Assembly: GCA_025362575.1 (NCBI GenBank)
Contig: JANYIQ010000128.1
Coordinates: 1 to 60,973, forward strand
Direction of reading: 5' to 3'
Origin: Bacteroidia bacterium
GTDB taxonomy: Bacteria; Bacteroidota; Bacteroidia; B-17B0; Aurantibacillaceae
Length of the DNA stretch: 60,973 nucleotides
Positions 11,762 through 51,479 of this stretch are shown here, one piece after another. Below the pieces are notes generated by a model. It worked only from the letters and a program-made list of their open reading frames with translations. It was not told where the DNA came from and made no database searches. How positions within the stretch are numbered: position 1 is the stretch's first letter; the number at the start of each line of letters is the position of its first letter. The position numbers were made by a program, and so were the translations under genes.

Positions 11762-11809
11762 GTTTCACGCAGATGAGCGCAGATGTCTTATTTATCCGCG
11801 AAACATCTG
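11762..11809. repeat. Degenerate copy of the CGCAGAT intergenic repeat
   Basis: The sequence TTTCACGCAGATGAGCGCAG with a nearby ATCCGCGAAA carries the same word set as the fuller copies at 31348, 35549 and 51320. It forms a 7-bp stem (CAGATGT at 11780-11786, ACATCTG at 11803-11809) but lacks the central 16-bp palindrome of those copies. Confidence 0.55.
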
Positions 11810-31347: not shown

Positions 31348-31506
31348 TTCACGCAGTCACGACGCGTCGTGATTGCTGATTAAAACGCAAATTTTTCGCA
31401 GATGTTTTTTTGTTAATTGTTGTAACCCACACCACCAAGTAGGCGCAGGCTAAAAAGGAAAATAATTCAAAACCATTTAAAATACCTCTGCGCAAATCTG
31501 CGTGAA
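31348..31506. repeat. Intergenic palindromic repeat, copy B
   Basis: It starts TTCACGCAG, runs into the perfect 16-bp palindrome TCACGACGCGTCGTGA (31357-31372), then GCTGAT and CGCAAATTTTTCGCAGAT. The closing CTGCGTGAA (31498-31506) is the exact reverse complement of the opening 9 bp. It fills the gap between rpmH and the convergent decarboxylase gene. Part of a dispersed family (see 35549 and 51320). Confidence 0.75.
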
Positions 31507-31518
31507 ATAAAAATCTCC

Positions 31519-32916
31519 TTAGTATCCGAGAATTTTCAGCATCGACTTATAACTTTGCTGCTTCGCAAATAATCGAGTGGTAATTTCTCCGTCGCTATCT
31601 CTGTCTATCAAAACATGTTTTGGCGCAGGGATCAAACAATGTTGCGTGCCTCCGTAACCGCTCAATGCTTCCTGATATGCTCCAGTGTGGAAGAAGCCAA
31701 TATATAATGGTTGCTTATACGTTTTATCAATTTCCGGTAAAAAAACCTGATTAGTATGTGCTTCACTATTATAGTAATCCATACTATCGCAAGTTAAGCC
31801 TCCAAGGTTAACCGGTGCATATGCTTTATCCCAATGGTTGATGGCCAATAAAATAAACCGCTGATTAATTCCCCAGGTATCGGGCAAAGTAGTAATAAAG
31901 GAACTGTCGATCATGTACCATTTTTCACGGTCGTTTTGCTTTTTTTGATCTACAATAGAATACAAAGTTGCACCACTTTCGCCCACTGTAAATGAGCCAA
32001 ATTCGGTGAATATATTAGGTTCATCTATCTCATGTTGGGTGCAAAATGCCTTAATTTGTTCAACAATTTCCTCAATCATGTACTCATAATCGTATTCGAA
32101 ACCCAGTGAGGTTCTGATAGGTAGCCCTCCTCCAATATTTAAAGAATCGAGTGTTGGGCACATCTTCTTCAGTTCCAAATATATACTAAGACACTTATTT
32201 AGCTCAGTCCAATAGTAAATGGTGTCTTTTACTCCGGTATTAATAAAGAAATGTAAGAGCTTTAGTTCGAACTTTGGATTGTTTTGTATCTTCTCTTTAT
32301 AGAGGTTAATGATATCGATGTAACGAATGCCGAGTCGAGAAGAATAGAAGGCAAAAGACGGCTCTTCTTCGGTGCTGATGCGTATTCCGACCTGACATTT
32401 ATCTACTTTTACGTGCTTCTTATAGTACTCAAACTCATCAAGATGGTCGAGAACCGGAAGAACATTGAAACCATCGTTGATTAGCTCTGTAACGTACTGT
32501 TTATAGAGGGTTCGCTTATAGCCGTTACAAATAATATATGTATCTTTACTCAGTTCTTTCTTTTTGTAAAGCTCTTTGATGATCTGGATATCGTAGGCTG
32601 ACGAGGTTTCTAAATGAACATCGTTTTTTAATACCTCGTCAAGCACAAATGAAAAGTGCGAACTTTTGGTACAATAACAATAAATGTACTTGCCTTTATA
32701 GTTAACTTTTGCCATGGCAACGTTAAATAAACGCTTGGCTTTTTGAATTTGTGACCCAATTTTAGGTAAATATGTGATTCTCAATGGAGTACCGTATTGT
32801 TTAATGATCTCCATTAAAGGAATATCGTTAAAATACAGTTCATCATCCGTCACAGAAAAGCCTTCTTGAGGGAAATTAAAGGTTTGATTTATCAAATCTG
32901 AGTATCGATTCTCCAT
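31519..32916 (-). CDS. Arginine decarboxylase, PLP type III fold (Bacteroidota short form)
   Basis: Predicted to make agmatine from arginine, the first step of polyamine synthesis. I use the ATG at 32916; a TTG four codons upstream is less likely. PLP-binding Lys84 is in YCYCTKSSHFSFVLDEVL, glycine-rich phosphate-binding block LDSLNIGGGLPI, C-terminal FTEFGSFTVGESG and the dimer cysteine region GLTCDSMDY are present. At 465 residues it is much shorter than the ~650-residue SpeA but matches the short form I know from Bacteroidota. Specificity for arginine rather than another amino acid is inferred. Divergent from an arginase-family gene 101 bp away. Confidence 0.78.
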   Translation of the reverse strand: MENRYSDLINQTFNFPQEGFSVTDDELYFNDIPLMEIIKQYGTPLRITYLPKIGSQIQKAKRLFNVAMAKVNYKGKYIYCYCTKSSHFSFVLDEVLKNDVHLETSSAYDIQIIKELYKKKELSKDTYIICNGYKRTLYKQYVTELINDGFNVLPVLDHLDEFEYYKKHVKVDKCQVGIRISTEEEPSFAFYSSRLGIRYIDIINLYKEKIQNNPKFELKLLHFFINTGVKDTIYYWTELNKCLSIYLELKKMCPTLDSLNIGGGLPIRTSLGFEYDYEYMIEEIVEQIKAFCTQHEIDEPNIFTEFGSFTVGESGATLYSIVDQKKQNDREKWYMIDSSFITTLPDTWGINQRFILLAINHWDKAYAPVNLGGLTCDSMDYYNSEAHTNQVFLPEIDKTYKQPLYIGFFHTGAYQEALSGYGGTQHCLIPAPKHVLIDRDSDGEITTRLFAKQQSYKSMLKILGY

Positions 32917-33017
32917 TTTTTTGAGCAAGTAAGTAAGTTACTTAGGCAAATTTAAGTCAATTTAAGTAATTTACTTCATCTTAAAGTAAAGAAAATGATA
33001 ATTAAAACATAAAGTAT

Positions 33018-33971
33018 ATGATAAAACCCATTAAAATAGTAGAAGTTAAGAGTGAGATCGGGGCTGGAACCCGCGGTTCGAGCATGGGAGTTGATGCCAT
33101 TAAGATAGCAGCCCTTGATTTTGGATCGCCATTTTTTAAAAAATTCAAATCCATTGAAATTCCAAACGAAAATTCTTCGTTGCTTGAACCTGTTATTAAC
33201 GACTACGCAAAACGTATTAAAGGTATTTTTAATTTGAATGAACGTCTTGCCAAAGAAATTCAGAAAATTTTAGGTAAAGAAGAAGTTCCAATTGTTTTGG
33301 CCGGCGACCATAGTTCTGCGCTCGGAACAATTTCAGGAATTAAAATGGCTCACCCTCAAAAAACGTTGGGAGTAATTTGGATCGATGCGCACGCAGATCT
33401 TCACAGCCCATATACTACACCAAGCGGAAACATGCACGGCATGCCTATTGCTTGCGTATTGGGTGAAGACAATAAAGACCGCCAGCAAAATAAACCTGAT
33501 GATGAAACGGTTGAATACTGGGAAAAATTAAAGAACCTTGGCGGGATAACTCCAAAAATAAGATACGAAGATCTGGTTTATATTGCCTTGCGCGACGTTG
33601 AACCACAGGAAGATTATTTATTGAAGAAAAATAAAGTACGCGTTTTCAATTTACAGGAGATCCGTAAAAAAGCCGTTGAGCGTGTTGCTATTGATTCTTT
33701 GAATTATTTAGATCATTGCGATATCATTTACGTAAGTTTTGATGTGGATAGCATGGATTCGCGCATCAGCAGCGGAACCGGAACACCCGTACCAAATGGT
33801 ATCACCGAAAAAGAAGCGGGCAATTTAATTTACTACATCATGCGAAGCAAAAAGATCTGTTGTTTTGAAATGGTAGAGATCAATCCAACTTTAGATAAAG
33901 AGAATTTAATGGCCGAAAATGCTTTCGAAATTTTACAGAAGGCAACTAACCAGTTAAGCAACGATTTTTAG
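33018..33971 (+). CDS. Arginase-family ureohydrolase (arginase more likely than agmatinase)
   Basis: Binuclear manganese hydrolase that releases urea. Metal ligands are complete: His98 (GDHSS), Asp123, His125 and Asp127 (WIDAHADLHS), Asp242 and Asp244 (SFDVDSMD). The segment TPSGNMHGMPIA and the closing EINPTLD match arginases, which bind the alpha-amino group of arginine. Agmatinases lack that loop. Placement opposite an arginine decarboxylase would instead favour agmatinase. I lean to arginase on residues; if so, the two genes compete for one substrate. 317 residues, normal. Confidence 0.78.
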   Translation: MIKPIKIVEVKSEIGAGTRGSSMGVDAIKIAALDFGSPFFKKFKSIEIPNENSSLLEPVINDYAKRIKGIFNLNERLAKEIQKILGKEEVPIVLAGDHSSALGTISGIKMAHPQKTLGVIWIDAHADLHSPYTTPSGNMHGMPIACVLGEDNKDRQQNKPDDETVEYWEKLKNLGGITPKIRYEDLVYIALRDVEPQEDYLLKKNKVRVFNLQEIRKKAVERVAIDSLNYLDHCDIIYVSFDVDSMDSRISSGTGTPVPNGITEKEAGNLIYYIMRSKKICCFEMVEINPTLDKENLMAENAFEILQKATNQLSNDF

Positions 33972-34036
33972 CTATTATTTATTTCGAGTTTGAGGTTTCG
34001 GGTTAAATGTCTTCTTCTAACTATTGAAATATATTC

Positions 34037-34732
34037 ATGAAAAAAATAATTCAAATATTATTTTCATTACTTGTTATAGTTAGTTTTTCCGACTGCAAGA
34101 AAACATTCTTTAAATCTGAAGTAAAGGGTAAGGTTATTGATGAGGCAACCGGAAACCCAATATCGGGAATTCAGGTTTATTTATTGGGCACAACAACCAG
34201 TCTTTCTTCATCAGGCCCTTCGGTTGCTGACCAGAATAACTCCGTTTATACAGATTCTGAAGGTAATTTTAAGTTCGAATTTCAAAGAAATAAATATGGC
34301 AACAACGGATATGCTTTATATGCGAAATGCGATCCTAATAAATACTTTGCCTACCTGAGTAGCAATGATATGATACCTCTTAAATTTGAAAAAAGCTTTA
34401 TGAAAGAGAAGATCACAAAGGATATTTATTTAAAACCAGTTGGTTATTTAAAGTTACATGCAAAGCATGTAAGTAGTGATACTGCTATTAGTGTCGGTGT
34501 TTATTTAAATGGTGGTGATATTAGGCTTTTGAATGGCAATTTGTTTGGGGTACTTTACCCAAAATATATTAGCGATACATCATTTGTGTTTATTTGCAAT
34601 GGCAATGAAAATGCAGCATTTATTTTCAGTGCAACTTTGAGAAACACTTCTAATGCATATTATGTTTATAGTGAGAATCAAAATCTTTTCATCAAAGCGC
34701 ATGATACTATTTATTACCAATTTAACTATTAA
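34037..34732 (+). CDS. Lipoprotein with carboxypeptidase-regulatory-like domain
   Basis: 231 residues. Signal MKKIIQILFSLLVIVSFSDC ends in a lipobox (FSDC, Cys20). Residues 29-90 (VKGKVIDEATGNPISGIQVYLLGTT) form the CarboxypepD_reg-like beta-sandwich common in Bacteroidota surface proteins. The rest is beta-rich with no recognised motif. Stands alone between the arginase gene and the PaaG-like gene (29 bp downstream). Function unknown. Confidence 0.75.
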   Translation: MKKIIQILFSLLVIVSFSDCKKTFFKSEVKGKVIDEATGNPISGIQVYLLGTTTSLSSSGPSVADQNNSVYTDSEGNFKFEFQRNKYGNNGYALYAKCDPNKYFAYLSSNDMIPLKFEKSFMKEKITKDIYLKPVGYLKLHAKHVSSDTAISVGVYLNGGDIRLLNGNLFGVLYPKYISDTSFVFICNGNENAAFIFSATLRNTSNAYYVYSENQNLFIKAHDTIYYQFNY

Positions 34733-34761
34733 CTGCTAGAACAAATTAATTCAATTACATT

Positions 34762-35538
34762 ATGAGTTTCATCCTATCCGAAAAAAAAGAAAAAGTAACG
34801 GTAATTACTTTAAACCGTGCCGATAAGTTTAACAGCTTTAACCGCGAAATGTCTTTGCAATTGCATAAAGCACTCGACGAAGCGGAAGCCGATAAAAATT
34901 GCAGAGCAATTGTTTTAACCGGAAGCGGTAAAGCATTTTGTGCCGGACAAGATCTTGCAGAAGCCATTGATCCTAATGGTCCTGGAATTGCGCGAATTGT
35001 TGAAGAGCATTATAACCCTATCATTTTACGTTTACGGAAAATTGAAAAGCCGATCATTGCAGCTGTGAATGGTGTTGCCGCCGGCGCGGGTGCCAACATT
35101 GCGCTTGCTTGCGACATTGTGTTTGCGGGTAAGTCGGCCAGTTTTATTCAAGCCTTCAGTAAGATCGGTTTGATACCTGATAGCGGCGGAACATTTTTTT
35201 TACCACGATTAACGGGCTTCAATTTGGCAAGCGCCTTAATGTTTACAGGCGATAAGATCACCTCCGACGAAGCATTACAACACGGAATGGTTTATAAGAT
35301 ATTTGACGATAATGCTTTGTTAGCACAAGCTGTTGTTAATGCCCAACATGTTGCCGGCATGCCAACCAAAGCAATTGGCTTAACTAAACGTTTGCTTAAC
35401 CAAACATACAACAACACCTTAGAGCAACAATTAAACATGGAACGCGATCTTCAAATCGAGTCTGCAAACAGTTACGATTATAACGAAGGCGTTAAAGCAT
35501 TCTTAGAAAAAAGAAAACCGGAGTTTAAAGGTGAGTAA
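34762..35538 (+). CDS. Enoyl-CoA hydratase/isomerase, PaaG-like
   Basis: Crotonase-fold enzyme acting on a CoA-linked substrate. Oxyanion-hole blocks FCAGQDL (about 59-65) and NGVAAGAGANIALACDIV (103-120) are intact. The catalytic Asp140 lies in LIPDSGGTFFLPRL, where hydratases of the ECH type carry Glu. That Asp, the AGQDL block and the C-terminal EGVKAFLEKRKPEFKG closely match PaaG, the ring-opening isomerase of phenylacetate breakdown. No other paa gene is in the window, so the pathway is uncertain. 258 residues, typical. Confidence 0.82.
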   Translation: MSFILSEKKEKVTVITLNRADKFNSFNREMSLQLHKALDEAEADKNCRAIVLTGSGKAFCAGQDLAEAIDPNGPGIARIVEEHYNPIILRLRKIEKPIIAAVNGVAAGAGANIALACDIVFAGKSASFIQAFSKIGLIPDSGGTFFLPRLTGFNLASALMFTGDKITSDEALQHGMVYKIFDDNALLAQAVVNAQHVAGMPTKAIGLTKRLLNQTYNNTLEQQLNMERDLQIESANSYDYNEGVKAFLEKRKPEFKGE

Positions 35539-35548
35539 CATTCGTGAG

Positions 35549-35668
35549 TTTCACGCAGATGTACGCAGATGAAGGCGCAGATGTTACGCAGATAAAATTC
35601 TATTAAAAACTATCTGCGAAAAATCCGCGAAACCATCAGCGCTCACGACGCGTCGTGACTGCGTGAAA
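35549..35668. repeat. Intergenic palindromic repeat, copy C (most complete)
   Basis: It opens TTTCACGCAG (35549-35558) and closes with its reverse complement CTGCGTGAAA (35659-35668), giving 10-bp terminal arms over 120 bp. Between are several GCAGAT and ATCTGCG words, ATCAGC and the 16-bp palindrome TCACGACGCGTCGTGA (35643-35658). Orientation is inverted relative to copies B and D. The terminal arms give it the look of a small non-coding element. Confidence 0.8.
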
Positions 35669-35672
35669 TAAT

Positions 35673-36359
35673 TCACCCACAAAATCCAGTAATAACTTTT
35701 CCTAAAACATTCACATCCACCGTCTCAATCGGATGCTTTGTATTTTGTAAAGTAAGGCGTTCGGCATTTTTAATCTGAGAAGCAACATTATCTGTTTCCG
35801 AAACCGTTACCATATTATCAGAATCTGCCAATCCCATCAAAACCCTATTTTTTATTTTCGAGAACGCTTCCGCGTTAAGCAAATTACTATTTCCAAGATC
35901 GATCATCATATCGGCTGTTCTTTTCAATAACAATTCCCAATTGTAGCCGTGCCGTTGTTTCAAGGCCTCTGCAAATTTTGGCACTTTCTCTGAAATGATT
36001 TTAGCGTCCAGCATCTTTAGTTCTTTTTGTGCTCCTTCAGGGGTCCAGTCCAGCTTGGTGCCGAGTGTAATAATATTCCCTATCAAATTCCTATTCTGAG
36101 CTGCCAAATACAAGGCCACATAACCTCCCATACTGTAAGCGAAAATCGGAACACCTTGCAAATTATTTTTTTTAATGAAACTTTTCAATTCACCGGCAAA
36201 TTGCTCGATGCCGAATTGCTTTTGAAAAGGCGCTTGTCCGTGCCCTGAAAAATCGAGAGTGTAGCCTTTGAAATTATTACCGGTTAATTTTTGTGCCAAT
36301 GGTTTTAATTGATCTGAAGCGCCAATAGCACCATGAAGAAGTATAATGGATCTTTGCAT
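35673..36359 (-). CDS. Alpha/beta-hydrolase family protein
   Basis: 228-residue cytoplasmic hydrolase. Motifs: HGAIGASDQLKPLA (oxyanion loop), DFSGHGQAP, and the nucleophile elbow AYSMGG with Ser76, followed by GLADSDNMV (acid region) and the catalytic His near the end (NTKHPIETVD). The first Gly of the usual GxSxG elbow is Ala here, a variation seen in active members. Substrate unknown. It follows the three propeller genes by 19 bp and may be the last gene of their operon. Confidence 0.82.
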   Translation of the reverse strand: MQRSIILLHGAIGASDQLKPLAQKLTGNNFKGYTLDFSGHGQAPFQKQFGIEQFAGELKSFIKKNNLQGVPIFAYSMGGYVALYLAAQNRNLIGNIITLGTKLDWTPEGAQKELKMLDAKIISEKVPKFAEALKQRHGYNWELLLKRTADMMIDLGNSNLLNAEAFSKIKNRVLMGLADSDNMVTVSETDNVASQIKNAERLTLQNTKHPIETVDVNVLGKVITGFCG

Positions 36360-36378
36360 AAATGAAATTATCGTAGGG

Positions 36379-37815
36379 CTATTTTCTTACCGCAACACTG
36401 TATGGGTCCACTGAAACTTCTGTACGTTTGGTTAAAACCTGCAAGGTGTTTAAGTCGATATAATTCACAAATCCATTCCTGCCATTACAAACCGAAGTAT
36501 GGTGTGGTGCAGGGCCATTCGAATAAATATTACGGCTCGCCACATAGATCAGTTTTTTACTTTCGTCAACTCCAATGCCATGAGGCATGTATCCCACTTT
36601 AATTTTTTGAATGTTGTACGGAAAATTAACATCCATCATTACCACGCAACCATGCTGACCAACAAAACTGGTTGTATCATCCATGCACGTAATGAATAAT
36701 TTATTTTTACTTGTGCTTAAAGCCATTTCTTTGGCATTATAAATGTTCGGAATAGTTGTTACTGCATAACTGGCGATATTCAAAACTCTTATCTCATTAC
36801 TTTTTTCGCAGGTCAAATAAAATTGCGTTTTATCGGGCGACAACATAATTTCGTGCGGATCTAACGAAGAACTATATGTCAACGGAGCACCATTTAAAAC
36901 GATCTGATTTTTCATACTTAAGGCTGTATCCAAAGCGTAAATAAAATTTCCTGACTGCCCTGTTACATAAATACTATCGTTGGCAGCATTTAATGCAACT
37001 CCATGCGGATACGTAAGACCCGGCAAATTGGTTATCAATTTCATATTAACCAGATCAACAGAAGCCACGTGCCCATTGGATGTCCACGCCACACAAAATG
37101 CTTTTTTTCCATCATCAGTTATTGTAAAAGTATTCCAATCTAGATTTGCGCCTAACACAGCTTCGCCAACTAAAGCATCATCACTGCAACGGAATTTCTG
37201 CATGATATTGTTATTCACAAAAACAACGTACCAGAATTGCCCATCAGGAGAAACTTTCACAACATGCGGTATTTCTATTCCGGCATTATTTCCAACAGTG
37301 ATGTAGCGAATCGGCAATTGCGTTTCGCTGTCAAAAACCGTAACCACATCACAACCTTGATTTACCACATAAATTTTTTTCCGAAGAGGATTATCAGCCC
37401 ACTTAATATTACCATTCACATCGGGAGCACCATCATTGATCCAATTCCTTATGCACTCAACCTCCTGACGTGATAATGCCGAGCCATTAAATGGCATGGT
37501 AGGAGAATTAATGATGCCAAGATCCGTATAAGTATTAACGAAGTAACAAAGCGAAGAAAAATCGGCGCGAAACGGAATGACAGAAGAACCTGAATTAGTT
37601 CCCTTGAACATATCATTCCAGGTTGTTAGATTCAGTCCGCCGGAAGCAAGATAACTTAAATTATTATGACAACCCGAAGTGGCACATTTGTAAACCATGA
37701 TCTTTCCAACATCACTTGGATAATTTCCGAAACCGACCTTGCCTTTATCTTTCCGGCAAAGCGAAAAGACAAAAATGATAAGCATCGAAACTGTTATGTA
37801 AAGAGTTCTGCGCAT
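36379..37815 (-). CDS. Surface protein: cytochrome-like CX4CH domain plus YVTN beta-propeller
   Basis: 478 residues. After a hydrophobic N-terminus (a lipobox-like FSLC gives Cys20, weak), residues 38-115 resemble a planctomycete-type cytochrome domain, but the heme-like site is Cys44-ATSG-Cys49-His50, i.e. CX4CH instead of CXXCH. The remainder is a YVTN-type seven-bladed propeller (KIYVVNQGCDVVTVFDSETQLPIRYITVG, then HVVKVSPDGQFWYV, and so on). No T9SS domain. Its ATG overlaps the stop of the upstream gene by one base (TAATG), which implies coupled translation. Possibly an extracellular redox or binding protein. Confidence 0.72.
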   Translation of the reverse strand: MRRTLYITVSMLIIFVFSLCRKDKGKVGFGNYPSDVGKIMVYKCATSGCHNNLSYLASGGLNLTTWNDMFKGTNSGSSVIPFRADFSSLCYFVNTYTDLGIINSPTMPFNGSALSRQEVECIRNWINDGAPDVNGNIKWADNPLRKKIYVVNQGCDVVTVFDSETQLPIRYITVGNNAGIEIPHVVKVSPDGQFWYVVFVNNNIMQKFRCSDDALVGEAVLGANLDWNTFTITDDGKKAFCVAWTSNGHVASVDLVNMKLITNLPGLTYPHGVALNAANDSIYVTGQSGNFIYALDTALSMKNQIVLNGAPLTYSSSLDPHEIMLSPDKTQFYLTCEKSNEIRVLNIASYAVTTIPNIYNAKEMALSTSKNKLFITCMDDTTSFVGQHGCVVMMDVNFPYNIQKIKVGYMPHGIGVDESKKLIYVASRNIYSNGPAPHHTSVCNGRNGFVNYIDLNTLQVLTKRTEVSVDPYSVAVRK

Positions 37816-42713: not shown

Positions 42714-42839
42714 TAATTTTCGGGATCGCTTATCTCAAAGATACTCAAAATCGAGTCAAAATGAAAGGTCTTGTTTTTTGCACCAATGAATTTACCTCCA
42801 ATTCCAGGAGACTTTCTATAGCTAAAATCCGCTTTTTTT

Positions 42840-42898
42840 CACTCAGTAAGAATGGGGATTCACCCATCCGGCAGGTGAATTAGTAAGCAAAATGAGTG
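42840..42898. promoter_or_regulatory. Nested inverted repeats between divergent T9SS genes
   Basis: Outer arms CACTCA (42840-42845) and TGAGTG (42893-42898), inner arms ATTCACC (42858-42864) and GGTGAAT (42874-42880). The whole could form one long hairpin, or two dimer sites. On the plus strand TAACTTTG (42949-42956) follows as a possible -7 element for the gene at 42981, without a clear -33 match. A regulatory region shared by the divergent genes is plausible. Confidence 0.4.
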
Positions 42899-42980
42899 GG
42901 CTAGCCCTTTTAATGTATGAAAAATCGGGCCAAACCTTTCAATTGGTCTAACTTTGTAATGTCACAAAAACTATGAAATA

Positions 42981-45900
42981 ATGACGCTTATGAAATTAAC
43001 TATGAAAAACAACAATCCCACGAACTTCAAGAAGAAAGTATTCTCTTTTTTACTTGCTTTTTCCTTCATTTTAGGATTAAACTACAGTTCAAAAGCCTGT
43101 TCACCTTTGAATGTTCCTGTTTTGGTAAGCCAAAGTATTGTTGGAAGTAATTTGATATTGAACTGGAGTTCAAATACCCCATACCACTGCCCTGATGTTA
43201 TTGATGTGGAAATCGCATGTAATACAGCTACCTTTTCGGGCTTAGCCGCCTATACCTATACTTCAGGTGTTGTAACAGGCGCTGTAACAACTTACACTTA
43301 TCCTCCAATGAGTATTCCAATTGGATCTCTGTGTCCTGGTACAGTTTATAAATTCAGAGCAAGAGAAAGAAATAACTCAAGCATGACCTCAAGCGCATGG
43401 TCTGCTAACTTTACCTTTACTACTCCGGGAGTTTTTATTCCTCCAACAGGAAACTTAACTGCAACTCCTCCGGTAATTACACTTTGTCCTCAAGGACAAT
43501 CAACACTTGGAATGGTTTGTACAAACTGTTGCGGTAACCCTCCTTATACTTACACATGGACACCGGCTGCCAGTTTAAGTTGCTCAACCTGTGCCAATCC
43601 GGTTGCCACACCAAGTGCTACAACTATATACACATTAAATGCAAAGGGCGGTCAGCTCGGTTGCTGGGGTATTACAAATACAGTTCAGGTTACAGTAATA
43701 ACTACACCTGCATCCATTGGTGTTGCAAGTTCAACTCCAACTTTATGTTCAGGTCAAACCGGAACTGTTGGCATAACAACATATAGTGGTGCCATTCAGT
43801 GGCAATCAGCTCCGTCTGCAACCGGTCCTTGGACCAACGTTACCGGTGCAACTACAGGTTCTTTTACAACCGTTCCATTAAACACAACAACATTTTATCA
43901 AGCTGTTGTTATTGGTTGCGGACCAACACTTACTTCAAACGTTACGCCAATTAACGTAACTCCAACTCCAACCATTACAACTTTAGGTTCTACAGTTTGT
44001 ATGGGTACTGCAGGAAGTTTATCGGCAAGCGGTGCAACCAGTTATGTATGGTCTGCCGGCGCTATGCCAACAGGCGTAAATACGGCGAGTGCATTACCGG
44101 TATCAACTACTGTTTATACAGTTACGGGTAATACATCAGGTTGTACAGGTACAGCTGTTGCTACAGTTTCTGTAAATCCAATGCCGGTTCCAACTGCAAC
44201 TAATAACGGTCCTGTTTGTACAGGAGGTTCTTTAGTGCTTGGTTCAACAGGTGGCGGTACTTATTCTTGGTCAGGACCAAACGGTTTTGTATCAGCACTT
44301 CAAAATCCAACTATCGTTCCAACAACAACTTTAAATCAGGGTGTGTATACAGTATTAGTTACTTTGAACGGTTGCTCTGCAACTGCAACTACAAACGTTG
44401 TAATTACAATACCAACAACATCGGCTTCTAACACCGGACCATATTGCGCTACTTTCCCGGTTATGTTAAGTGCCGCAACAGGTGGTATTGGTTATATGTG
44501 GAGCGGCCCGGGTGGCTGGAGTTCTGCAGTTCAGAATCCTACAATTCCTGCATCAGTTGCAGCTATGTCCGGTATCTATACAGTAACCGTAAACTTAGGA
44601 AGCTGTACTGCAATGGCAACTACATCGGTAACGGTTAACGCCTTACCTACACCAATGATCGGCAGTAACTCTCCGGTTTGTGTTGGTAAACCAATTAACT
44701 TTACAGGAAGTGGCGGAACATCTTATTCATGGTTTGGTCCGGGTTTAGTGAGTTCAACTCAAAATCCTACCATTAACTCTTCTCAAACAACAAACACAGG
44801 AACTTATACTTTAACGGTGACTGATGCAAATGGTTGTATAAATAAAACGACTACGAACGTTCTTGTAAATGCATTACCTGTTGTTGCAGCAAGCGGCCAG
44901 GTGGTTTGTCAGAATTCAACTGCTAACTTAACATCAAGCGGTGGTGTAACTTATAGCTGGACCGGTCCGAACGGATTTACTTCTTCAAGTCAGAATGCTA
45001 ACATTCCAAATGCACAACCGATCAGCACAGGTCAGTATCAGGTATTCATTACCGATGCCAATACGTGTACGAATATTGCTGTTGCAAACGTTATTGTAAA
45101 TCCTCAGCCTACTCCAAACATTCAAACTAATAGCCCAATTTGTATTCAGAATGTTTTATCGCTTGCAGGTTCAGGTGGTGTTTCTTATGCATGGACAGGT
45201 CCTAACGGTTTCTTCAGTACGGCACAAAGTCCTACTGTTTTAGTAAACACAACTGCTTACACCGGAAATTACAATCTAACCATTACTGATGCTAATGGCT
45301 GTACAGCTTCAACACAAGCAAGTGCAACTGTTAATCCGGTACCGAACGTAACTATTGTATCGAGTAAAAATACAGGTTGCCCTCCTTTATGCGTAACTTA
45401 TACTGCGGTAGCTTCTACTTCATCGCCAATACAAAATTACAGTTGGAATTTAGGAAATGGTGCAGGAAGCAATACACCTAACGAACAGGCTTGTTATCCT
45501 TCGGCAGGTATTTACACAGTAGGTTCAACAGTAACAGATGCTAATGGGTGCAGCAACTCTACAACTTACACAGTTCAAACTTACCCTAAACCTGTGGCTG
45601 ATTTTAATTACGCGCCAATTAAACCGATCGAAGCAGTTGACGAAGTAACATTCACAGATGCATCTTTCAGCGCGAACGTTGCAACCTGGAACTGGTATTT
45701 CATGAATACTGCACAAGCTACCTCGAACTTACAGAACCCACACTACACCTACGCTGAAGCCGGGCAGTACGCCATTGCTTTAGTTGTGAAAAGTGACCAT
45801 GGCTGTATTGACACAATCATTAAATCGATATTAGTTGGAGAAGATTACGGCATCTATGTTCCTACTGCATTCTCGCCGAACGGTGACGGTTTAAATGATG

Positions 45901-46127
45901 TATTCCATGCAAAAGGATTTGGTATCTCTAAATACGAAATGCAGATCTTTGACCGCTGGGGAGAGAAAGTATTTACAAGTACTGACATTAACGAAGCCTG
46001 GGATGGTACCAGCATTAAAGGCGGTAACAAAACAATTGCCGAAGGTGTATTTACCTGGAGAGTTAAATTAACCAACGTGTTTGGTAAATCTAAAGAGCTG
46101 ACCGGGCACGTGACTTTGATCAAATAA
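42981..46127 (+). CDS. Large T9SS type B surface protein with Ig-like and PKD repeats
   Basis: 1048 residues. The first ATG or one of two nearby (42990, 43002) gives the signal region KKKVFSFLLAFSFILGLNYSSKA. Residues 45-150 resemble fibronectin type III (KFRARERNNSSMTSSAWSANFTFTT). About eight Ig-like repeats follow (PVCVGKPINFTGSGGTSYSWFGPG, then TGTYTLTVTDANGC), and then two PKD-type domains near 835-955 (YSWNLGNGAGS, ATWNWYFMN). The C-terminal 85 residues are the gliding-type (type B) sorting domain: PTAFSPNGDGLNDVFHAKG, then IFDRWGEKVFTS. Probably an adhesin; type B cargo often differs in anchoring from type A. Alone, with its own terminator. Confidence 0.87.
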   Translation: MTLMKLTMKNNNPTNFKKKVFSFLLAFSFILGLNYSSKACSPLNVPVLVSQSIVGSNLILNWSSNTPYHCPDVIDVEIACNTATFSGLAAYTYTSGVVTGAVTTYTYPPMSIPIGSLCPGTVYKFRARERNNSSMTSSAWSANFTFTTPGVFIPPTGNLTATPPVITLCPQGQSTLGMVCTNCCGNPPYTYTWTPAASLSCSTCANPVATPSATTIYTLNAKGGQLGCWGITNTVQVTVITTPASIGVASSTPTLCSGQTGTVGITTYSGAIQWQSAPSATGPWTNVTGATTGSFTTVPLNTTTFYQAVVIGCGPTLTSNVTPINVTPTPTITTLGSTVCMGTAGSLSASGATSYVWSAGAMPTGVNTASALPVSTTVYTVTGNTSGCTGTAVATVSVNPMPVPTATNNGPVCTGGSLVLGSTGGGTYSWSGPNGFVSALQNPTIVPTTTLNQGVYTVLVTLNGCSATATTNVVITIPTTSASNTGPYCATFPVMLSAATGGIGYMWSGPGGWSSAVQNPTIPASVAAMSGIYTVTVNLGSCTAMATTSVTVNALPTPMIGSNSPVCVGKPINFTGSGGTSYSWFGPGLVSSTQNPTINSSQTTNTGTYTLTVTDANGCINKTTTNVLVNALPVVAASGQVVCQNSTANLTSSGGVTYSWTGPNGFTSSSQNANIPNAQPISTGQYQVFITDANTCTNIAVANVIVNPQPTPNIQTNSPICIQNVLSLAGSGGVSYAWTGPNGFFSTAQSPTVLVNTTAYTGNYNLTITDANGCTASTQASATVNPVPNVTIVSSKNTGCPPLCVTYTAVASTSSPIQNYSWNLGNGAGSNTPNEQACYPSAGIYTVGSTVTDANGCSNSTTYTVQTYPKPVADFNYAPIKPIEAVDEVTFTDASFSANVATWNWYFMNTAQATSNLQNPHYTYAEAGQYAIALVVKSDHGCIDTIIKSILVGEDYGIYVPTAFSPNGDGLNDVFHAKGFGISKYEMQIFDRWGEKVFTSTDINEAWDGTSIKGGNKTIAEGVFTWRVKLTNVFGKSKELTGHVTLIK

Positions 46128-46147
46128 ATAAAGTTAATTATATTGGA

Positions 46148-46178
46148 AAGCCCCCTTACTTTCGTAAGAGGCTTTTTT
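46148..46178 (+). terminator. Terminator of the type B surface gene
   Basis: AAGCC and GGCTT, with an inner CTTAC-TTTC-GTAAG hairpin, followed by TTTTTTATTT. It lies 20 bp after the stop at 46127. Confidence 0.8.
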
Positions 46179-46218
46179 ATTTGAAATTTTAGTGCTTTCG
46201 TTCTTTGAAAAAAAATAA

Positions 46219-46374
46219 TTTACTTTGAGCAGACAATTACAAGATCATCGAAGAAAAAATAAAGATATCGCAGACAGCATTCATTACGCCAAACGTATTC
46301 AAAACTCATTGCTTCCAACAGAAAAATACATTGAACGGATCTTAAATGATCAGAATAAAGACAAGAGTTCTTGA
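46219..46374 (+). pseudogene. Fragment of a SpoIIE/PP2C phosphatase gene
   Basis: A stop-to-stop frame with no ATG start. It encodes about 50 residues including KNKDIADSIHYAKRIQNSLLPTEKYIERIL, the linker and start of the SpoIIE-type phosphatase domain in Bacteroidota signalling proteins (the block DSI.YAKRIQ..LLP is diagnostic). The rest of the phosphatase is missing: the frame ends DQNKDKSS then TGA. Nothing upstream matches the sensor domains that normally precede it. A relic of a lost gene. Confidence 0.65.
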
Positions 46375-46388
46375 GGTTTCAGAAGCTT

Positions 46389-46757
46389 TTACTTCGGCAT
46401 TATAAGGATATGCCTCAGATCCAGTTCATCGCCTCTACGTGCAATTAACTGTATAAAATGAAAACCATATTGAGTTTCAAAGATCTCTGAAACATCGCCC
46501 GGCTTTAAACTGAAAGCCACTTTTTCAAATTCTTTTACCATGGTGCCCGGAACGATGCCTTTGTATATCCCGCCATTGCTTGCCGAACCCGGATCGTCGC
46601 TGTAAAGCCCTGCTAAAGTACCAAAAGACTCGCCCCTGATCACGCGCTGGCGACAACTCTCCAATTGATCGTGCGCTTTCTTTTTTTGTTCGTCGGTGCC
46701 AGGGCTTTGGGCATTGATGATGAACGGAAATAAAAGAAGTAGAATTAGTTTTTTCAT
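46389..46757 (-). CDS. Small secreted parvulin-type peptidyl-prolyl isomerase, unusual domain order
   Basis: 122 residues from the ATG at 46757, giving signal MKKLILLLLFPFIINA; an in-frame lead upstream is not a signal peptide. The parvulin core is clear: FGTLAGLYSDDPGSASNGGIYKGIVPGTMVKEFEKVAFSLKPGDVSEIFETQYGFHFIQL. The usual first strand (xxHILI) is absent from the N-terminus, and a matching LDLRHILIMPK is found at the C-terminus. Either this is a circular permutation of the fold or a slice of a two-domain SurA-like protein. Probably periplasmic; activity unproven. Confidence 0.75.
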   Translation of the reverse strand: MKKLILLLLFPFIINAQSPGTDEQKKKAHDQLESCRQRVIRGESFGTLAGLYSDDPGSASNGGIYKGIVPGTMVKEFEKVAFSLKPGDVSEIFETQYGFHFIQLIARRGDELDLRHILIMPK

Positions 46758-46863
46758 AGGTGAATTTTTTTGGTTCGTTTTTAGATCATTCAAATATATA
46801 AAACCGATCCATCGAAAAATAATAATTAACATTAATTACCTGATTTGAAATGCCGAAAAATAA

Positions 46864-46891
46864 AAAAGGCCCTCAGTTATGAGAGCCTTTT
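46864..46891 (-). terminator. Terminator of the BNR-repeat gene
   Basis: Stem AAAAGGC / GCCTTTT, with CTCA and TGAG inside, 20 bp past the stop of the minus-strand gene and followed by TTTTTTATTTTT on that strand. Confidence 0.8.
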
Positions 46892-46910
46892 CAATTCTAT
46901 ATTGAAATAT

Positions 46911-48158
46911 TTATTCAATGATCAGTTTTCCATTGCTTACCGGAATATTCTCATTAAACACTTGGTAAGAATAAAGCCCTTGAGCAAAGTTCTGCAAATT
47001 AATGCCTGCTTTTCCTTCATTCATTTTATAAACCCCTACTTGGTTACCTAAAACATCGGCAATTCTTACTTCACAATTGCTTTCGTAAATCAATTCACCG
47101 GCCTCTATGGTTACATTGCCATTGGCAGGATTTGGATAAGCCTTACTTTGAACTGCTTCAATGTAATTTTCCTTTATGCCTGAAAAGATCTCAGTAATGG
47201 CGCGTCGCATAATTCTTGGATTTGGACCAGCCGTATTTACAGATGCAACAATGTGAGTTCCCACTACAGTAATATGTTTCATTAAGAATTCATAATTACT
47301 ATACGTTAAACCTGAATTGTTTTTTGCCCAAGTTGATCCACCATCCTGACTGTAAACAAAACCAGAATCTGTTGCAATCAATACATGATTGGTATTACTT
47401 GGTCTCACATAGATATCGTTTATAAAAATATTATTTGCACCGTTTCCTGCATTATAAGCAGGTGTCCAATTAGCACCGGCATTTACTGACTTAAATATTT
47501 TACCGAATTCAGAACCTGTAAATAATGTTGTTGGTGTTGAACCTAAGGCGCTAATGTATTTATCAAATGCAGTAGCACTAGGTAATCCAGTTGATGAATT
47601 AGAAAAAGTTACACCATTATCTGTAGATTTTATAACCATAGTTCCTGTAGTTCCGGCAAAAAGGGTTCCGTTCAGATCACGAATAACGGTTACCAATGTA
47701 CCGGTAATAACAGCTGATTGAGCAACCCAAGATGTTCCGCTCAATTTCCATATTCTGAATGAACTGCCACTCACAGGGCAAGTAGCTGCAACAACTATTC
47801 CATTAATTACAGCCATTGATTTTATAACATCTGATGCGCCAATAGCACTGGTCATAAGTGTCCAGTTATTTCCAGTGGTAGATTGATAAATAGTGTTCGT
47901 ATTATTTCCAAAAGCATATACTGTGCCCGCATTCATCGTACCGAAACGCAAACCACCTGCAGGAACACCTGTATTTGAAGATGACCAGGTTGCCCCATTA
48001 TCGGAAGAAGAATAAAGTCCACTTGTCGATGGATCACTAGCTAGCACCACACCGAATGCAGAAAATACATCACCACTTGTATTATTACCTGTGGTAACCC
48101 ATTGCGAGAAACCCGATAAAGAACTCAAAGTTAAAATTGAAAGTAAAAGTTTTTTCAT
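46911..48158 (-). CDS. T9SS-exported BNR/Asp-box repeat protein
   Basis: 415 residues with signal peptide MKKLLLSILTLSSLSGFSQ. It has repeated Asp-box-like strands (YSSSDNGATWSSS, SVNAGANWTPAY, YSQDGGSTWAKNN), the beta-propeller motif of sialidase-like and plant photosystem-like proteins, here probably a binding protein. No sialidase catalytic residues can be pointed to. A type A sorting domain ends it (AYPNPANGNVTIEAG to LIIE). Its 5' region holds a strong hairpin (48182-48216). Confidence 0.8.
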   Translation of the reverse strand: MKKLLLSILTLSSLSGFSQWVTTGNNTSGDVFSAFGVVLASDPSTSGLYSSSDNGATWSSSNTGVPAGGLRFGTMNAGTVYAFGNNTNTIYQSTTGNNWTLMTSAIGASDVIKSMAVINGIVVAATCPVSGSSFRIWKLSGTSWVAQSAVITGTLVTVIRDLNGTLFAGTTGTMVIKSTDNGVTFSNSSTGLPSATAFDKYISALGSTPTTLFTGSEFGKIFKSVNAGANWTPAYNAGNGANNIFINDIYVRPSNTNHVLIATDSGFVYSQDGGSTWAKNNSGLTYSNYEFLMKHITVVGTHIVASVNTAGPNPRIMRRAITEIFSGIKENYIEAVQSKAYPNPANGNVTIEAGELIYESNCEVRIADVLGNQVGVYKMNEGKAGINLQNFAQGLYSYQVFNENIPVSNGKLIIE

Positions 48159-48181
48159 GTTTAAAAATTTTAAGGTTTAGT

Positions 48182-48224
48182 TTTAGTCCGTAGGATTTTC
48201 GATCCAACGGACTAAACAAATTTA
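48182..48224 (-). promoter_or_regulatory. Promoter-like -7 element and 5' leader hairpin of the BNR-repeat gene
   Basis: On the minus strand TAAATTTG (48224-48217) matches the -7 consensus, although no good -33 lies 19-20 bp upstream. It is followed at once by a hairpin with TTTAGTCCGT / ACGGACTAAA outer and GGAT / ATCC inner stems (48182-48216). The hairpin would form at the very 5' end of the transcript and could protect it or bind a regulator. Confidence 0.5.
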
Positions 48225-48293
48225 ATAAAAAAATTGATAAAAACCACATTTTTGGCGTTCGCCTTTCTCTCTTTTAGTTACTGTGGTCAAAGC

Positions 48294-50972
48294 CTACTTT
48301 AAAGACTTATACATTTCCGCCAACTTAGTTTTTGTTTCACTGATCGTTTTCAATTCAGCGTTTAGACTTGTAACATCCTTGCTTTCTTTTTTAGCAGCTT
48401 CTATCAATTTATTCTGTTTATCTTCTCTGTCCTGCCAAACATCCACTAAATTACTTTTAAATAACTTCTGCGCCGTATATTTCACAAACTGATTGTCTGA
48501 CTTAGACATCTTTGTTAATTCAGCCGCGCCGGCCATTGCGGTTTCAGGCTTCACGCAGCGCTTCAAAAATTTACCGTAAAGATTTCCAAAACCTAATAGT
48601 TCAAATCCGCTGAAATTATTTTTAGCCTTATTAAAGAATTCAATATTTTCATCGCTCCCATTATTAGCATATAAATTAGCAACGGCATAGATCACTTTTT
48701 TACCGCTTTCGTTCTCAAGCGCCTTTGCTTTTTGTGTTGCTAAAACAGGATTCACTTTTGCAAGTGCATTCAATCCTTCGGCAACTATCGCATACGATTG
48801 CTCGTTCAGTGCTTTTTCATATAATGCATTCAGATCGGCACCGCTATAATTATTAGATAAGGCTTCCAATGCAGCCGCACGCACCTTTGTATTAGCATCA
48901 TTATTATAAATGCCAACAAGTATTGGTTTTATTTCCGATTCTTTGTCTTTGGCAAGATCATTTAAAATATCAATGGCATCTATTCTGAAGTTTTTCCACT
49001 TATCGTTTTGTGCGATCCACTTCGCTAATTCATAAACATCTTTATCGCTTTTATTGATTCGGCAATAATCGATTGCTTCATTTCTATCGCCCCATAAACC
49101 GGCGTTCTTATATTGAAACAGTAATTCTTCTTTTGATTTTTCAAACCGGATATTTCCAAGCAATTGTCGTTCCCCATCAAAATTCACAAGATCCGGTTTT
49201 GCACTTACGTTAAACGTAAAAGTTTGATTGGCGTCTTCGATCCAGATGCGTTTGCGTTCCTTTTTTCCGCCTGCATAAATATCAATGTATACCGGTAATT
49301 TGTAAAGCGGGCACTCCGTAAAATCCTGTTTTTGTTGTACGTTCAGTGTTACTGTTTTTGCAGTTTCATTATAACCTTTTGTGATCTCCAAACGTGGATG
49401 TCCTTTAGCCAGGAACCATTCGTTAAAGAACCAGTTCATGTCTTCTCCGGTAGTTGCTTCAAAAGCCAAACGCAGATCGTGAATTTCTGCACTTTTAAAA
49501 CGACGAGTATCCAGATATAATTTCAGAGAAGCAAAAAAAGCTTCGTCGCCAACATATTTACGTAACATGTGCAACACTTGTCCACCCTTATTATAACTGA
49601 AACCATCAAACATATCTTCGCGGTTATCATAATTGAATCGCACAAGATCCACTTGCTTTTCACCTGACTGCGCCATGTAGCCGCCGCGTGAACCCGCATG
49701 ATGTTCATCTGCCGCATCGCGACCGTATTTATGTTCGTTCCATAAATATTCTCCGTAAGTAGCAAAAGATTCATTCAAGGGCAAATTACTCCAACTTTCT
49801 GCGGTAGCAAGATCTCCGAACCATTGATGAAATAATTCGTGGCAGATCACATCATCACCTTTAACGCCATCAATGGTCTCACGGGTAGTTTGATAAACCA
49901 TAAAATCTCCGTGCAAAGTAGCGCTTGTATTTTCCATGGCACCGCTCACATAATCGCGGGCAACAACCTGTGCGTATTTTGGCCATGCATAATCCACACC
50001 TAAAGTTTTAGAGTAGAATTCGATCATCTCTTTTGTATGTCCGAAAATTGCTTTGGCATGTTGTTCATATTCCTTTTCAACATAATAACTTATTTCTTTT
50101 CCGTTCCAGGGTTCATCAACCACTTTTTTAAATTCGCCGATCGCCATCATTAATAAATAGGTTGAATGTGGCAGATCCATTTTCCAATGATCTGTTCTTG
50201 TACCATCTGCATTCTTCTTAGAATCCGTTAACAAACCATTCGATAGAGTGATGTATTTATCATCAACGGTAATGTAAATTTCATCCGTCATTTTTTCATT
50301 AGGAGAATCTACAGTAGGGAACCAAACTGAGTTACTTTGAGTTTCACCCTGAGTCCATATTTGCGGCATTTTGTTAGGGTCTTCACCTTTTGGATTAATG
50401 AAGTATAAACCCTTATCGCTGCTGATGGCCGCACTTCCGCCTTTTTTAGTTTCGTTCGGTTTGGAGATGTATTCGATGGCAATATAATAATCTTCTTTTG
50501 CTGTATATTCTCTTCCCAAATTAATTTTCAAGGAGTCGTTTTCGTAAACATAAGTAAGTGGTTTATTTGAATAAGTAGATTCTTTTGTTTCTGTTTTCTT
50601 TCCTTTTACCGTTTCAGTTTTTGTTGTGACTTTTTCTTCTGCCAGACTGATGCTTTTGATTTCCATGCTTCTTGCATTTAAATAAAGCATGGAGGTTGGG
50701 TAGAAATATGGCTTAATGTGAAGAAGCGCTTTTCCATTCATCTGAGCATTTTGCCAGTCGAAATTTACTTCAAGTTTGGTATGAAGTATATCATTGGTAA
50801 GTGTATTACTGGCTCTGTAGATCTCCTTTTTAGGAGCTTCGTTAGCAACCACGCGAATAGTGTCTAAATTAATGGAAGGTTCGGAAACCGTTGATTGCGT
50901 TTTTTTTGTGGATGTACAAGCTGCAACGATAATTGCAAACGTAATTCCTGAAACAAATTTGAAATGGCTCAT
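48294..50972 (-). CDS. M1-family zinc aminopeptidase, lipoprotein
   Basis: 892 residues. Lipobox VAAC (Cys19) ends the signal. The substrate-binding GAMENTSAT block and zinc site HELFH (His378, Glu379, His382) with Glu401 (LNESFATYGE) are present, followed by a C-terminal helical repeat region (AALEALSNNYSGADLNALYEKAL). It removes N-terminal residues from peptides at the cell surface or in the periplasm. All catalytic residues are intact. Monocistronic. Confidence 0.93.
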   Translation of the reverse strand: MSHFKFVSGITFAIIVAACTSTKKTQSTVSEPSINLDTIRVVANEAPKKEIYRASNTLTNDILHTKLEVNFDWQNAQMNGKALLHIKPYFYPTSMLYLNARSMEIKSISLAEEKVTTKTETVKGKKTETKESTYSNKPLTYVYENDSLKINLGREYTAKEDYYIAIEYISKPNETKKGGSAAISSDKGLYFINPKGEDPNKMPQIWTQGETQSNSVWFPTVDSPNEKMTDEIYITVDDKYITLSNGLLTDSKKNADGTRTDHWKMDLPHSTYLLMMAIGEFKKVVDEPWNGKEISYYVEKEYEQHAKAIFGHTKEMIEFYSKTLGVDYAWPKYAQVVARDYVSGAMENTSATLHGDFMVYQTTRETIDGVKGDDVICHELFHQWFGDLATAESWSNLPLNESFATYGEYLWNEHKYGRDAADEHHAGSRGGYMAQSGEKQVDLVRFNYDNREDMFDGFSYNKGGQVLHMLRKYVGDEAFFASLKLYLDTRRFKSAEIHDLRLAFEATTGEDMNWFFNEWFLAKGHPRLEITKGYNETAKTVTLNVQQKQDFTECPLYKLPVYIDIYAGGKKERKRIWIEDANQTFTFNVSAKPDLVNFDGERQLLGNIRFEKSKEELLFQYKNAGLWGDRNEAIDYCRINKSDKDVYELAKWIAQNDKWKNFRIDAIDILNDLAKDKESEIKPILVGIYNNDANTKVRAAALEALSNNYSGADLNALYEKALNEQSYAIVAEGLNALAKVNPVLATQKAKALENESGKKVIYAVANLYANNGSDENIEFFNKAKNNFSGFELLGFGNLYGKFLKRCVKPETAMAGAAELTKMSKSDNQFVKYTAQKLFKSNLVDVWQDREDKQNKLIEAAKKESKDVTSLNAELKTISETKTKLAEMYKSLK

Positions 50973-51479
50973 TCTAAAAATTTTAATTTCTAAATTTCAC
51001 ATAAATTGCTTTAACATCAAAACAATTAAGATACGATGAAGATAAAGGAATTTAGCGCATTTACCATACCCCAATTTGGGTGATTGCCAATGCAAAATCA
51101 TTAAAAAGCACGATAATTTAAGCCTCTGCCAAGGGCTGGCACCCTTTATTAGCAAACCAAACAGGCACTTGTTTTTTTATTGCGTGAATTTACCGCACTA
51201 TGGGTGAATCGTGGCAGACTTAAATGCTCTAATTTTGTACAGATTCATTTATTTTTTTGATTGAACAGAAAACCCTCTTTGGTCGGGTAGCTAAAGGGGG
51301 TTTTTGGTTTTAGGGAAGGTTTCACGTAGTCACGACGCGTCGTGATCGCTGATGAAAACGCAGATTTTTCGCAGATTGCCTGCGTTAAAAAGCAGTTCGC
51401 ATTGCCATTAACAGATATGAATTCGTGGGTTTTTCGCAACCGGAAAACTGCCACCTGCTAATGCCTACTCTTTACTATA
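50973..51479. other. Long intergenic region with an orphan promoter-terminator pair
   Basis: About 500 bp without a credible gene. A short hairpin TGCCA-AGGGC-TGGCA lies near 51129. On the plus strand TAATTTTG (51230-51237) resembles a -7 element without a -33, and a terminator-like stem (AAAACCCTCTTT with AAAGGGGGTTTT) follows at 51269-51305, so a transcript of about 60-70 nt is possible. Repeat copy D (51320-51378) lies beyond. TGGGTGAWT words occur at 51076 and 51200. Confidence 0.4.
51320..51378. repeat. Intergenic palindromic repeat, copy D
   Basis: TTTCACGTAG followed directly by the same perfect 16-bp palindrome TCACGACGCGTCGTGA (51330-51345), then TCGCTGATGAAAACGCAGA and TTTTTCGCAGAT. 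It aligns with copy B base for base over most of this length. No closing arm was found here, so this copy is partial. Confidence 0.75.

Follow-up and report, generated by a model that had tools for sequence, protein, structure and literature searches.

In this study, we analyzed a 60,973-nucleotide stretch of the draft genome of Bacteroidia bacterium (GCA_025362575.1, contig JANYIQ010000128.1, positions 1 to 60,973 of the forward strand; hereafter the window) and examined a 16-bp perfect palindrome, TCACGACGCGTCGTGA, in the window, in the rest of the genome and in other bacteria. The palindrome is probably an ultrashort selfish insert, one type of a superfamily of the form TCNCGA-N4/6-TCGN'GA, which spreads by swapping its 16 bp into 4-bp slots of other sequences. 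Insertion into multiple hosts, replacement of 4 bp at most comparable sites, a bias against A immediately outside the palindrome, nesting and a patchy distribution were all observed.

First, the palindrome was found to be dispersed and to lie in unrelated surroundings. Its three exact copies in the window were accompanied by TTTCACG(C/T)AG on one side (TTCACGCAG at the 31357 copy) and GCTGAT or GCAGAT words on the other, as the initial annotation had described, with the 35643 copy in the opposite orientation to the other two; no further match was present in the window at up to three mismatches (0.10 expected from shuffles). In the whole genome (G000; 4,324,882 bases in 327 contigs, 98.11% complete, 3.68% contamination), we found 32 exact copies against 0 reversed controls, and the looser pattern TCNCGACNNGTCGNGA gave 66 matches, again against 0 reversed controls. 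With 13 further copies in a second genome, the palindrome is not a matter of a few copies lacking shared structure elsewhere. The flanks of the 32 copies, sorted by eye, defined host families (a) to (e) (Table 1), only one copy falling outside them. Because the window contains family (a) copies only, palindrome and flanks had looked like one element to the earlier reader. Judged from the flanks, the palindrome has been inserted separately into host repeats of at least five unlike kinds; the CGCAGAT units are just one of these, and most copies lie outside them. The earlier description of a dispersed, small, non-autonomous element resembling repetitive extragenic palindromic (REP) sequences thus holds in spirit, except that palindrome and flanks do not form a single element, the flanks being host repeats that also occur palindrome-free. 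The inverted arms reported at that time (9-bp arms spanning 159 bp and 10-bp arms spanning 120 bp) are real and belong to the copies at 31357 and 35643, respectively, and the diverged relative without palindrome is present, starting at 11763 and not at 11762.

Second, comparison of filled and empty host copies indicated a precise replacement. Empty copies, which share the flanks but lack the palindrome, were sought in the fetched part of the genome, and partners that had a gap of 16 or 18 bp and were themselves TCNCGA palindromes were dropped before counting. A partner was recovered for 33 of 45 distinct filled 16-mer sites, and the best gap was 4 bp in 24 of these. At random positions (120 tested, gap 16 dropped), 47 matches were spread over gaps, and only one had a gap of 4. 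The empty slot CGAGTGGCGAA[AGCG]CGACCCGAGGC showed 0 mismatches to the filled flanks, and further examples were GGTCGGTG[AGCT]GTGCTCCC, CCTG[AGCC]TGCCGAAGG and CTCTG[TGCC]TCCGTGG, the first of which is the REP of a REP-associated tyrosine transposase (RAYT) discussed below. Across families (a) to (e), the empty slots read AGCT, AGCG, AGCC, GGCT, TGCC, TGTC, GGCA, ATTT, ATGA, AGTT, AAAT, GCAT and AACT. For family (b), the only empty copies came from other loci (L027, L032, L036, L156 and L163), and CTC[CT]GTGGTT gave 0 matches in the first 457-kb sample. By this comparison of flanks, the palindrome stands in for exactly 4 bp at most comparable sites, 16 bp going in for a net gain of 12 bp. No target duplication was present at sites with a gap-4 empty partner, where 4 bp were lost, and direct duplication of CGCAG or TCCG is ruled out by the empty sites.

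The junctions were biased as well. The first base outside the 16-mer was never A, either at 90 junctions in the own genome, which are not independent because they are confined to a few host families, or at 28 junctions in the second genome (G026), and outside a sister palindrome of 18 bp (the 18-mer) it was A at 9 of 194 junctions. The A content of own and G022 DNA is approximately 31%. Flanks in G026 favored CCG-pal-CGG, and at 10 of 14 sites the palindrome continued by at least 1 bp into them, whereas no excess of such symmetry was observed at own sites (7 of 45).

Third, copies in the second genome revealed other kinds of target. G026 belongs to the same family and another genus, and was the only other genome among the 100 searched that contained the exact 16-mer (13 copies). 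One copy was located inside the D-loop of a tRNA-Arg(TCT), GTAGCTC[pal]GGATAGAGC, and the intact slot, GTAGCTC[AGCT]GGATAGAGC, was present in all 16 orthologs recovered from 20 same-genus genomes as well as in an intact copy of G026 itself; ARAGORN called no tRNA in the filled copy. Beside the intact copy lay another tRNA start, filled with a variant palindrome. Another copy occupied the loop of a terminator-like hairpin (AAAAAAGGCA-pal-TGCCTTTTTT), and a further one had an empty partner in the same genome (CACCCTG[AGCG]GAGTCG). Overall, partners were found for 4 of the 13 sites (two at gap 4 and two without gap 4), and none for the other 9 in the fetched part. TCNCGA arms were not enriched in 300 kb of G026, perhaps due to the sparseness of copies. 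In one G026 contig (C33; L086, 244-251), a run of N at a tRNA start leads into the opening bases of one palindrome copy; assemblies may be interrupted at such places, so that draft genomes may under-count copies.

Protein genes were also entered, and the in-gene palindromes were absent from most or all orthologs. In the own genome, the gene for an RsmB/F-type rRNA methyltransferase contains the in-frame sequence TCGACA[TCACGACCTGTCGTGA]CAG. Among 21 aligned methyltransferases (21 of 22 loci, the partial L316 being excluded), only one, from the congener G004, carries an insert there that is clearly related; it reads TCGACA[AGCT]CGG, which looks like the orthologous empty slot in the alignment, and the distant G010 protein is longer at this position by a few residues of its own. 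In G022, two palindromes of 19 and 18 bp add 4 and 5 residues to an EamA transporter and are absent from 10 aligned orthologs. An 18-mer in the gene for a Thg1-like protein of G019 encodes DPDSYRD; of the two homologs found, the close one lacks the 18-mer and the other has diverged too far for a judgement.

Related palindromes extend well beyond the 16-mer. A de novo analysis of over-represented hairpin arms in 812 kb of the own genome, made with no prior motif, yielded TCACGA (19 vs 0.24 expected), TCCCGA (10 vs 0.17) and CCTGCC (8 vs 0.25), the next best ratio being 4.8. On sequence criteria, the 16-mer belongs to a wider set of palindromes of 16-19 bp, mostly TCNCGA-N4/6-TCGN'GA. Both TCCCGACGCGTCGGGA and TCCCGATAGCTATCGGGA occupy the same slots as the 16-mer, for example CATCCTG[AGCT]TGTCGAAGGAT, and nesting was found in G019, where TCGCGAAGCCTCGCGA lies within TCCCG..GCTATCGGGA. 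Complementarity at N was seen in 31 of 31 matches to TCNCGA-N4/6-TCGNGA in the own sample, 18 of 19 in G022, all 9 in G049 and G053, 20 of 26 in G019 and 1 of 2 in G026, and on the whole this arm-pair pattern appears to fit a conserved hairpin. As single strands, both the 16-mer and the 18-mer are predicted to fold into a 6- or 7-bp stem with a 4-nt loop; the loop centre is CGCG in 34 of 45 own sites and mixed in the remainder. A third type, CCTGCC...GGCAGG (L053 and L165 in G000), offered one clear case, a plain 20-bp insertion with gap 0 and no loss.

Other features of G019 were seen in passing. At positions 8000-15000 of L201 (G019:C1:280001-300000), tRNAs are densely clustered; several look degenerate, and some of these have TCCCGATAGCTATCGGGA-type palindromes inside or adjoining. 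All 18 Rfam matches, in 6 sources, were to tRNA in L201, one of them (9599-9741) with a long internal insert, and none lay in the window. In L206 (14267-15167), two units with TCGCGAGGCTTCGCGA stand 885 bp apart, on either side of a 183-residue open reading frame.

The distribution of these palindromes was patchy. The exact 16-mer was present in 2 of 100 genomes, the own included, and in 1 of 395 genomes of a phylum sample (the own), and it was absent from all 7 same-genus genomes examined. The 18-mer occurred in 35 of the 100 genomes, including the own and all 7 congeners, at up to 79 copies. The looser TCNCGACNNGTCGNGA had no match in the 7 congeners and 1-4 matches in 7 of 53 other relatives searched (G026 aside). 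At copies 1 and 2 of the window, the flanking genes align with the orthologous spacers of the 7 congeners, and among the matches listed none covers the palindromes (query 458-473 and 4744-4759), so these spacers provide no cross-species empty site. When named genomes were scanned for the palindrome joined to CWG, a query that sees only part of the copies in a set that may omit the window's own genome, there was one match, in Bacteroidetes bacterium UBA4416 (contig DGQK01000014.1). Among viral contigs, the 16-mer gave 0 matches and the 18-mer was found at 40 places in 37 stretches, 6 of them in open frames of at least 120 codons. In two viral stretches (L261, 4780-4930, and L278), the 18-mer lies, by eye, in a tRNA-fMet-like D-loop, where ARAGORN calls no tRNA. 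Thus, the superfamily appears to be old and the 16-mer is likely to be a recent outbreak from it at the level of the species, and the identical sequence in another genus suggests horizontal transfer. An assembly or adapter artefact is ruled out by the 4-bp slots in specific hosts, by the two separate draft genomes and by related palindromes in many others.

How such an insert might spread can be outlined. The 16-bp palindrome would form a hairpin with a 6-bp stem and a 4-nt loop and replace 4 bp of its target without target duplication. Its targets would mostly be other repeats, namely heptamer arrays and REP-like hairpins (even the REP belonging to a RAYT), and further the tRNA D-loop, the terminator-like loop and protein genes where the frame allows. 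Copies would arise by active movement, most likely through a cut-and-replace reaction or a single-strand hairpin swap by a putative trans-acting enzyme that recognizes the hairpin or palindrome. From the junction bias and the loss of 4 bp, we infer that this enzyme would make a staggered or paired cut and accept a hairpin. A broader proposal, which we hold with somewhat less than even confidence, is that the whole superfamily is actively mobile in Bacteroidia through a previously undescribed exchange of a 4-bp duplex for a hairpin, is a hyperparasite of REP-like repeats that also enters tRNA and protein genes, and would be the smallest mobile element known.

Several observations weigh against the 4-bp swap. 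The best gap was other than 4 at 9 of the 33 partnered sites (5, 8, 10, 12, 13, 14, 16 at two sites, and 24), and 12 of the 45 filled sites had no partner. A control with mixed flanks (133 pairs) gave 36 matches, of which 7 had a gap of 4 and 11 a gap of 16, because the sites share host families. The phase of the insert is nearly constant within families (a) and (b), so the 33 partnered sites are not independent, and a single filled host copy may be the ancestor of many others. The 18-mer replaces 3, 4 or 5 bp, not always 4, and arm position 3 was non-complementary (A-C; G-U on the other strand) in 5 of 24 TCNCGACNNGTCGNGA copies in G026 and in at least one of those listed for the own genome. 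The two genomes that carry the 16-mer are each a draft split into many contigs, and neither an enzyme nor an intermediate nor strain-level presence/absence was seen, each species being represented by one genome. Finally, the flanks of some copies (L002, L008 and L034) are symmetrical, which suggests template switching at a hairpin as well; mirrored flanks around individual copies read CCCGA[pal]TCGGGG, CCCTC[pal]GAGGGG and TTTCACGCAG[pal]CTGCGTGAAA.

Template switching during replication is the main rival, although we consider it unlikely. Here, strand switching by the polymerase, or gene conversion, would copy the palindrome into hairpin-prone repeats with no dedicated enzyme. The mirrored flanks, the lengthened palindromes of G026 and the strong hairpins formed by some hosts (REP (e), folding z -5.0 against shuffles) all favor it. 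However, the 57-nt stretch of window copy 3, comprising heptamer host and palindrome, folds no better than shuffles (z 0.16), and the own sites show no excess of flank symmetry. A fixed sequence in unlike contexts, the 4-bp loss and the shared bias at the first outer base would need a donor and a precise cut.

We consider it improbable that the palindrome is a REP- or REPIN-type element mobilized by a RAYT transposase of the Y1 HUH class. The genome does encode such enzymes, with eight Y1_Tnp matches. TnpA_REP subclass 2.6 occurs in Bacteroidetes and is described with the motifs YIHNNP and NH[LIV]H (PMC6006769); one own RAYT (L021, the same locus as L228) looks like this subclass by its YIHNNP motif, with SHIH in place of the second. 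Its flanks hold GGTCGG REPs, and the palindrome variant TCACGACGTGTCGTGA has invaded one of these. In addition, G026 has a RAYT 4.2 kb from one palindrome copy, and RAYT L257 is followed by a looser TCCCGA-N8-TCGGGA. However, this single REP on one flank of L021 was the only instance among 30 listed RAYT loci in which a copy flanked a RAYT, as a REP does its cognate enzyme; within 220 bp of the other 29, no TCNCGA palindrome of 16-18 bp was present, and most of the 30 were flanked, by eye, by other hairpins such as GCACGGATTGCAAATCCGCGCGAACGG. The RAYT's own REP also occurs empty, and the palindrome lacks a constant unpaired GT[AG]G foot. L021-type homologs were present in 39 of 100 genomes, own included, and showed no association with the 18-mer among 99 genomes (13 of 34 with it vs 25 of 65; odds ratio 0.99, p = 1.0), the 16-mer being in too few genomes for such a comparison. 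Since RAYT flanks are mostly palindrome-free and co-occurrence is absent, the REPs here are hosts of the palindrome, and the RAYT is not supported as its driver; the REP-associated transposase that the initial annotation had wished to find therefore exists without a supported link. Five further Y1 transposase genes (L016-L020; 147-177 codons) carry a Y...Q..HH motif, and most have small hairpins nearby, by eye, which are unlike the palindrome.

An origin as a miniature inverted-repeat transposable element (MITE), or as the remnant of a longer transposon bounded by 8-bp inverted repeats (TCACGACG...CGTCGTGA), would agree with the perfect abutting inverted repeats and the dispersed, mostly intergenic copies. 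It is very improbable, given that 4 bp are lost and no target is duplicated, and that unpaired TCACGACG half-sites showed no excess (5 vs 11.5 expected in 0.8 of 4.3 Mb), so that the fetched part gives no sign of a longer parent element. Least credible is a binding site of a chromosomal or regulatory protein maintained by selection, which the perfect palindrome and conserved arms might suggest, but 394 of 395 genomes of the phylum sample lack the 16-mer, as do the 7 same-genus genomes, it is located within repeats, in a tRNA gene and in a protein gene, and related palindromes nest.

Features of the window and the host families are collected in Table 1. Separately, window positions 34084-34437 are 91% identical, in inverted orientation, to G000:C57:12560-12912 near RAYT L021, and the duplicated stretch is coding.

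Table 1. Palindrome copies and host units in the window, and host families of the 32 genomic copies (pal, palindrome).
Feature	Position or flanks	Strand	Remarks
Palindrome copy 1, TCACGACGCGTCGTGA	31357..31372	.	Replaces 4 bp of CGCAGAT-type host unit; empty partner GTTTCGCGCAG[ATTT]TCGCTGATTAA in L163, 3 mismatches/22
Host unit of copy 1 (CGCAGAT heptamer family)	31348..31506	+	159 bp, 9-bp inverted ends TTCACGCAG/CTGCGTGAA
Palindrome copy 2	35643..35658	.	Empty partner ACCATCAGCGT[GCAT]TTGCGTGAAAT in L032, 2 mismatches/22
Host unit of copy 2	35549..35668	-	120 bp, 10-bp inverted ends TTTCACGCAG/CTGCGTGAAA
Palindrome copy 3	51330..51345	.	Empty partner GTTTCACGCAG[ATTT]CCGCTGATGAA in L162, 2 mismatches/22
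Host unit of copy 3	51320..51378	+	TTTCACGTAG, then CGCAGAT words
Palindrome-free host unit, same family (start)	11763..11786	+	TTTCACGCAGATGAGCGCAGATGT
Host family (a), CGCAGAT heptamer units	TTTCACGCAG-pal-TCGCTGATG		13/32 copies
Host family (b), CTCTGTG	CTCCGTGAAACTCTGTG..CTCTG-pal-TCCGTGGTTAA		9/32 copies
Host family (c), GCGAA/GGGTCG	GAGTGGCGAA-pal-CGACCCGAG, plus second slot close by		6/32 copies
Host family (d), CATCCTG	GTCATCCTG-pal-TGCCGAAGGAT		1/32 copies
Host family (e), GGTCGG REP	GGTCGGTG-pal-GCGCTCCCGACC		2/32 copies

Small dispersed repeats (SDRs) of Nostoc, reportedly described by Elhai and colleagues in 2008, are said to be hairpin repeats of 21-27 nt in cyanobacteria that are embedded in heptamer tandem repeats and mini-transposons, nested and lineage-restricted. 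By that description, the present palindrome is similar as a very short, hairpin-forming and lineage-restricted sequence that nests within heptamer arrays and other repeats, whereas it differs in being a perfect palindrome of 16-19 bp in Bacteroidota, with 4-bp replacement and with copies in tRNA and protein genes. Rickettsia palindromic elements (RPEs) are described as approximately 150 bp long with an open reading frame (PMC10969869) and are inserted both in intergenic DNA and in-frame in protein genes (PMC10969869, PMC3733652), which is also where the palindromes were found here; unlike these elements, which have their own frame and belong to another phylum, the palindromes measure 16-19 bp, and a peptide such as PDSYRE comes from the palindrome alone. 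REPs are palindromes of 20-40 bp with an unpaired tag, GT[AG]G or CGTC, at one end (PMC3733652, PMC6006769); RPE-4 and RPE-6 are of the CGTC type, for which no transposase is known (PMC3733652). Tagged REPs and REPINs share small size and dispersal with the palindrome, and some host repeats here are REPs adjoining RAYTs; however, the palindrome has no constant tag, its neighbouring bases following the host, and it invades REPs. The short palindromic repeats of Volvox organelles, hairpins of 14-79 nt with 3-5 nt loops, are likewise often inserted into one another, but they are organellar, mainly in noncoding DNA and variable in length, and no 4-bp rule is described in the accessible part of that report (PMC2670323). 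The palindrome resembles the Nostoc SDRs and RPEs in behaviour but fits neither definition by size, and it lacks the REP features that were tested and the target duplication of a MITE. In the open-access literature searched, the three palindrome cores had no match, only one of six host strings (TTTCACGCAGAT) was matched, in an unrelated virus paper, and no description of the palindromic element was found among the matches listed.

The palindrome looks to be among the smallest mobile DNA sequences known. If this is true, DNA of only 16 bp can be mobile by a precise reaction that trades 4 bp for 16, and such short DNA can be layered onto other repeats, tRNA genes and proteins. The 4-bp slot rule makes the movement of very small palindromic repeats directly testable, and the motif can be searched for across the bacterial class.

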